The translations under genes and the position numbers were made by a program. A model generated the notes under the pieces. That model did no database searches and was not told the DNA's origin. It saw nothing but the letters and a program-made list of their open reading frames with translations. Of a DNA stretch of 64,000 nucleotides, positions 1 through 854 are shown piece after piece. Position 1 is the stretch's first letter. Each line of letters starts with the position of its first letter. The stretch spans positions 1 to 64,000 of the forward strand of contig JACMPW010000007.1 of the NCBI GenBank assembly GCA_014377305.1. Direction: 5' to 3'. Source of the stretch: Candidatus Altimarinota bacterium (lineage in GTDB: Bacteria > Patescibacteriota > Gracilibacteria > BD1-5 > UBA2023).

Positions 1-548
1 AGAGTTCCTCCAACTACGACGACATCACCAGAAGCGAAGTTCACAGATGATTCAGAGAGAGTAAATGTAAGAGCTGAAGTAGATCCAGAGTTCACACTCG
101 TTGGAGTAGCTCCGATAGTTACCGTTGGAGCAACAGTATCTTTTGTAACTGTTGTAGTTATGCCAGAAGCAGTTACTGTGCCACCAGAATTTGTAACTGT
201 TCCACTAAGAGTCACTATTCCTTCACTTAAAGAAGAAAGATTATTAGAAGGAAACTGAATTCAACCACTTCAATTATTTGATCCTGTAAGAGTTATGATA
301 CTAGCACCAGTATCAGTTACATCAACCCTAACTACATCTCATGTATCAAGGGTACCATTGAGATTTACATTAAATGTATAATTTCAAGAATTTGTATTAT
401 TAATATATGCAGGTGCCGCTATAATATTCCCAGAATCAATAACAGTAGCATACGTCATATTGAGTCAGATCGGGCCGAACTGAGATGCGAGCATCGCTGT
501 GAGGGTCACGAGTGACACTCATCTCCGAGAAAAAAAGGATTGTTCCAT
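1..548 (-). CDS. Large secreted Ig-like repeat surface protein (N-terminal part)
   Basis: The start is ATG at 548-546; the C-terminus lies outside the window. Read with UGA as Gly, the first 34 or so residues look like a basic N-terminus plus hydrophobic signal peptide (MEQSFFSRRGVSLVTLTAML). The rest is Thr/Ser/Asn/Gly/Val-rich beta-type sequence. From about residue 140 it has the DTVAPTVTI...SGSTSALTFSLSESS pattern typical of tandem bacterial Ig-like domains in large adhesins and surface proteins. At least six in-frame TGA codons fall in this segment. A surface or attachment role is inferred from the domain type. The protein appears to be transcribed from a promoter whose spacer is a G tract (see the promoter at 677-705). 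The family is clear, but the exact function is not. Confidence 0.75.
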
Positions 549-676
549 AAAATAATGGTAAAGGATATAAACATACATACTATCAATAGGGTATACAATA
601 ATAATACCTCTCTAGTAGACTACTAATATGAGCATAACTAAAAATAGCAAATAATTAATACTAATTTGACTACAAG

Positions 677-705
677 AGTATATCCCCCCCCCCACCGATT
701 GTCAA
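677..705 (-). promoter_or_regulatory. Sigma-70-type promoter with a G10 tract as spacer, upstream of the surface-protein gene
   Basis: On the minus strand, TTGACA (705-700) and TATACT (682-677) are separated by exactly 17 bases. The spacer is ATCGGT, then ten G, then A. Both hexamers are at or one base from consensus. The start codon of the Ig-like surface protein lies about 130 bases downstream, with no other gene between. A homopolymer in the spacer changes hexamer spacing each time it slips, which is the classic layout of phase-variable promoters. Confidence 0.75.
684..693. repeat. Homopolymer C10/G10 tract
   Basis: Ten consecutive C on the plus strand (G on the minus strand), lying between the -35 and -10 hexamers of the promoter at 677-705. 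It is a candidate slipped-strand contingency locus. Confidence 0.9.
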
Positions 706-809: not shown

Positions 810-854
810 ATATACAAAAATAGTGTACACCCAGTGTACACTATTTTTGTATAT
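810..854. terminator. Perfect 21-bp inverted repeat, probably a terminator
   Basis: Two perfectly complementary 21-base arms (810-830 and 834-854) are separated by CCA. The arms are AT-rich (ATATACAAAAATAGTGTACAC), so the T-rich half of the stem replaces the usual U tail. It lies just downstream of the minus-strand gene at 888-1145 and is placed to end it. The rest of 549-887 holds the phase-variable-type promoter and no supportable gene. Confidence 0.6.

Follow-up and report, generated by a model that had tools for sequence, protein, structure and literature searches.

The window, i.e. the whole 64-kb stretch analysed here, corresponds to positions 1-64,000 of contig JACMPW010000007.1 (C3) of Candidatus Altimarinota bacterium (GCA_014377305.1). 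The organism is an uncultured patescibacterium that uses genetic code 25, in which TGA is read as Gly, and its 918-kb assembly is 93% complete. At the beginning of the window, the minus strand carries a candidate promoter followed by the 5' part of a gene for a secreted Ig-like surface protein (Table 1). The TTGACA and TATACT hexamers together match the consensus at 11 of 12 positions (minus strand, 705-677). They enclose a homopolymeric spacer, defined by a tract of at least 8 nt between -35 and -10 (here G10, 684-693), and the spacing of 17 bp is at or near the optimum. The initial annotation, which placed the two hexamers exactly 17 bases apart with ten Gs between them and about 130 bases ahead of a secreted Ig-like gene, is correct in sequence and coordinates, the -10 hexamer standing 128 bp before the ATG at 548.

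Table 1. Features of the poly-G promoter locus and other long G tracts of the same genome.
Feature	Position	Strand	Remark
5' part of secreted Ig-like surface protein gene, 182 codons	3..548	(-)	code 25, six TGA = Gly
Predicted signal peptide region, MEQSFFSRRGVSLVTLTAMLASQFGPIGLNMTYA	447..548	(-)	read by eye from translation
Presumed 5' leader, ~120 nt	549..671	(-)	start presumed ~7 nt past -10
-10 hexamer TATACT	677..682	(-)	5/6 consensus
Promoter spacer, 17 bp, ATCGGTGGGGGGGGGGA (ATCGGT + G10 + A)	683..699	(-)	read from sequence
G10 homopolymer	684..693	(-)	sole G/C run >5 in the window
-35 hexamer TTGACA	700..705	(-)	6/6 consensus
Perfect 20-bp inverted repeat, 3-base loop, ATATACAAAAATAGTGTACAC...GTGTACACTATTTTTGTATAT	811..853	.	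terminator-like in both directions
Second spacer G10, TTGACG-18-TAGAAT, before DUF805 membrane protein	G000:C16:25917-25926	(-)	
G9 (G6T before it) near 5' end of 1302-codon frame, peptidoglycan-binding domain	G000:C4:66860-66868	(-)	

No further promoter-like site of at least 9/12 with a spacing of 16-18 bp was found between the -10 hexamer and the gene. The RNA fold of the presumed leader was nothing unusual (z = 0.1) and no Rfam family reached the cut-off in it; RNA structure was dropped as a leader feature on these grounds. On the other side of the promoter, the inverted repeat is likely a bidirectional terminator, which would set the poly-G promoter apart from the minus-strand gene that precedes it (888-1145).

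Just 182 codons of the Ig-like gene are visible because contig C3, and with it the window, begins inside the gene. The start ATG at 548 gives a signal peptide, and another in-frame ATG lies upstream at 578. Since a hydropathy test made from the ATG at 578 called the gene negative, the predicted signal peptide rests on inspection of the sequence and on homologue N termini. A Big_12 domain begins at residue 137 (33.7 bits, above the Pfam cut-off, partial at the contig edge) and, together with the signal-peptide-like N terminus, marks the product as a secreted surface protein. Contig C1 opens with a 718-aa open frame (C1:1-2157) of the same repeats. It contains five Big_12 stretches (184 bits) and one Bact_surface_Ig-like domain, so that Big_12 domains above the Pfam cut-off are repeated, and it holds a near-identical copy of the repeat found at the C3 edge. 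Judged from these repeats, the assembly very probably broke within the Ig-like region between C3 and C1, and the protein would therefore have about 900 aa or more, a length that is likely if the two parts belong together. The gene would then comprise 182 codons on C3 and 718 on C1, with an assembly gap inside the repeats. Of the earlier description as a giant Ig-repeat surface protein, the secreted and Ig-like nature stands; "giant", in the sense of thousands of codons, goes beyond the coding sequence seen, as the gene runs off the contig. The protein presumably serves in attachment.

Long G tracts in the genome

Runs of G or C in the window have lengths of 1 to 5, with none of 6-9 and a single one of 10; runs of A or T in the same window reach 8. 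The probability that a random 10-mer position falls inside the spacer of a promoter-like site was estimated according to consensus score, and amounted to 0.037% of positions (about 0.0004) for 11/12 sites and 0.28% for 10/12 sites. G tracts of at least 8 occur only three times in the 918-kb genome, twice within promoter spacers. The placement of the G10 in a promoter is not due to chance.

The second spacer tract, on contig C16, precedes a gene for a DUF805 membrane protein without a homologue among the family's genomes. The third tract, on contig C4, has three ATGs upstream of it, each in another frame, so that each tract length would bring another start in frame. It belongs to a lineage-specific N-terminal stretch, as homologues align only from residue ~33-39. 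Given this position, slippage would change expression there too.

Occurrence of poly-G spacer promoters

The class was surveyed (353 genomes) with the pattern TTGAC-(0..9)-G8-(0..9)-TANNNT, using the reversed pattern as control. Spacer tracts turned up at 47 distinct places in 28 of these genomes, versus 3 matches of the reversed control, and several individual genomes had three to five such tracts. When C8 replaced G8, 9 sites were obtained versus 1 in the control; 47 G-tract against 9 C-tract sites shows that G is strongly favoured in the coding strand. About 28 of the 61 G tracts of at least 8 in 12 poly-G genomes lay within such spacers, a proportion that is no class average, these genomes having been picked for having matches. 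The 47 tracts (G8-G13) lead to spacers of 14-21 bp around 17 (14 bp, 3 tracts; 15, 6; 16, 7; 17, 10; 18, 5; 19, 8; 20, 5; 21, 3). Closer to the present locus, neither the Ig-like nor the DUF805 gene has a close homologue in same-genus genomes, none of the family homologues of the Ig-like protein has a poly-G promoter, and the promoter itself did not turn up in family relatives.

Such a promoter could have been peculiar to this lineage. A scan of named genomes contradicts this, as it found at least 119 stretches with the same layout from many phyla, and the arrangement is therefore widespread. The listed matches include Clostridia, Bacilli, Ancillula, Saccharibacteria, Nomurabacteria, Peribacteria, Chloroflexi, Treponema and Streptobacillus. 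Among 123 listed TTGACA-G9+-TATAMT sites, spacers measured 13-23 bp, mostly 15-20, with a pattern that permitted 10 to well over 20. The spacers of this pattern (L093-L211, many phyla) peak at 16 and 19-20 bp and not at a single 17.

The first gene behind these promoters was classified by simple hydropathy (an N-terminal hydrophobic segment), not by a signal-peptide predictor. In the class, 21 of 41 first genes had such a segment versus 51 of 233 other ORFs of the same stretches (OR 3.7, p = 2e-4). Among the listed matches in wider bacteria, the corresponding figures were 61/88 and 129/580 (OR 7.9, p = 8e-18); the background rate is 22% of other ORFs. Secreted peptidases of the C39-like and M57-like types are among the downstream products, as are proteins that resemble pilins or lipoproteins and others with a membrane anchor. 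At one locus (G107:C77, L284, minus strand), about 65 bp separate a G10 from a pilin-like frame downstream. This frame has no typical prepilin start and may represent a frameshifted (off) state.

Mismatch repair

The absence of MutS is expected to increase homopolymer slippage. No match to MutS_I (PF01624) was found in the genome studied (93% complete), and the 27 genomes of its family gave none either; within the class, 184 of 353 genomes have the domain. About 21 of the 28 genomes with poly-G promoters are MutS-positive. MutS loss is thus not a general requirement, most of these genomes having MutS, and it was dropped as a general cause for that reason. In one family (f15, about 74 genomes), MutS_I gave no match and poly-G spacer promoters were almost absent.

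Spacer length in related genomes

Paralogous promoters within one genome can differ in tract length. Those of G302 have G13, G10 and G10, those of G037 have G8 with a 15-bp and G9 with an 18-bp spacer, and those of G289 are also unequal. The three poly-G promoters of G102 have spacers of 14, 14 and 15 bp. The sister genomes G102/G103 provide an internal control, in which promoters without poly-G share the upstream motif and the -35 hexamer with these three but have spacers of 16-17 bp. The motif of the latter, AAAAAAAGTCCTCAAAAATTTGACA, is conserved, their spacers are T- or A-rich (L348-L356), and they likely form a lineage-specific strong promoter class. Compared with ordinary promoter spacers in the same DNA, a wider spread of poly-G spacers was a trend only, in a small sample. 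Taken together, the comparative spacer data are compatible with slippage, no proof of it.

Different secreted proteins were also seen to be preceded by almost the same cassette of about 200 bp, made up of promoter and leader, in G058 (L028-L030, L341) and G037 (L026, L027, L342-L344). Where such a cassette lacks poly-G, its G tract is interrupted in G058 and its spacer is A-rich in G037.

Other relatives would fit a constitutive promoter whose G-rich spacer is held at one length, in which the G tract would be selected for structure or protein binding and not for variability. Four promoters of G058 have a constant 19-bp spacer, one of them despite an interrupted tract, and in the relatives G258 and G260 the spacing stays at 16 bp for tracts of G7 and G8. 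Tract lengths of orthologues could be compared in the sole pair found, G112/G118, where the same G8 promoter is conserved before proteins down to 78% identity. Such constant spacing is evidence against free variation in these relatives. The strand bias (47 G versus 9 C sites), which length change alone should not produce, also favours a fixed-length spacer. Against it stand the range of spacer lengths (14-21 bp for the class, 13-23 bp for the listed bacterial matches) and the unequal tracts of paralogous promoters within one genome. Moreover, homopolymers of about G10 length are inherently unstable, especially where MutS is missing, and G/C tracts this long are otherwise almost absent. A promoter of fixed spacing is on balance unlikely at this locus.

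The hexamers could also be chance matches around a passenger tract, with the gene transcribed from elsewhere or silent. The 128 bp between -10 and ATG, versus about 45 bp usually found after other poly-G tracts, would agree with this, as would the number of promoter-like sites in the region, which is not above chance overall (50 found, 48.7 expected). Yet a placement this good has p ~0.0004 at a random position and is similar at the second of the three genome tracts, the excess of G-tract spacers over the control is class-wide (47 versus 3), and the terminator-like repeat at 811-853 lies upstream with no other promoter evident. These observations make a passenger tract quite improbable. A sequencing or assembly artefact or a homopolymer miscount is very improbable and was rejected: some Illumina chemistries give poly-G artefacts (e.g. 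two-colour calls), a contig end (G311:C3) falls exactly in a tract and another tract (G107:C70) abuts an N run, but promoter-completing sequence occurs on both flanks, in promoter orientation, in many separate assemblies, and an artefact blind to promoter direction would not give 47 G against 9 C sites.

Proposed mechanism

We consider it probable that the G10 site is a slippage-tuned (phase-variable) promoter of the secreted Ig-like protein. A sigma-70-type promoter with a slippage-prone G10 spacer would drive this adhesin-type protein, and replication slippage would add or remove one or two Gs in the tract. The altered tract would shift the -10 hexamer relative to the -35 hexamer, and transcription would go up or down. 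As a result, the population would comprise cells displaying more or less of the Ig-like protein. The inverted repeat at 811-853 would block read-through from upstream, which would leave the poly-G promoter as the only evident one of the gene. We infer both that the tract changes in length and that expression follows tract length. The phase-variable promoter proposed in the initial annotation is borne out in its architecture and its secreted product, is strengthened by the class-wide recurrence and the enrichment of surface or secreted genes, and is weakened by the constant spacing in some relatives.

If switching is real, a sub-megabase organism with a changed genetic code retains a stochastic surface-protein switch, which would bear on the attachment of episymbionts to their hosts or their escape from them. 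It is possible, though doubtful, that poly-G spacer promoters are a widespread and largely unrecorded diversifier of surface proteins, both in reduced, probably host-attached Patescibacteria and in many uncultured gut Clostridia and Bacilli. In that case, the preference for G over C and the two peaks of spacer length (16 and 19-20 bp) would point to a part in promoter function for the G tract as such, beyond its length. The layout is detectable in public genomes by a simple pattern and strongly tied to surface genes, so that phase variation of uncultured lineages can be tested from existing metagenome reads.

Comparison with known systems

In Neisseria, homopolymers between the -10 and -35 elements of porA, opc and fetA alter expression (PMC2791445), and homopolymers of at least 8 are mostly variable in meningococci (PMC5084427). 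The resemblance to these spacers that had been proposed for the present promoter was upheld (PMC2791445). As in porA, opc and fetA, a G/C homopolymer of about 10 lies in the spacer between -35 and -10, the sequenced spacing is near-optimal and the product is a surface protein. Unlike them, the present promoter belongs to an uncultured code-25 patescibacterium, and the tracts of its class are mostly of coding-strand G. The kind of promoter is therefore already known; new are the lineage and the breadth of occurrence. In the papers searched, an incomplete set and so weak evidence of novelty, no such promoter is described for this lineage, and one paper is relevant to phase variation in it. This paper concerns the hypervariable PTD-repeat gene of a gracilibacterium (PMC6851277), which shares with the present case the broad lineage, a local hypervariable locus and a predicted surface protein. 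The PTD-repeat gene, however, varies in codon use inside a coding repeat, and the paper describes no promoter tract (PMC6851277). The pilus switch of Bifidobacterium breve (PMC9187656) is also similar: there poly-G slippage governs a surface attachment structure, in a non-pathogen. Its tract is intragenic and acts by frameshift, whereas the tract of the Ig-like gene lies in a promoter; within this genome, the tract on contig C4 is the closer match to the B. breve system (PMC9187656).
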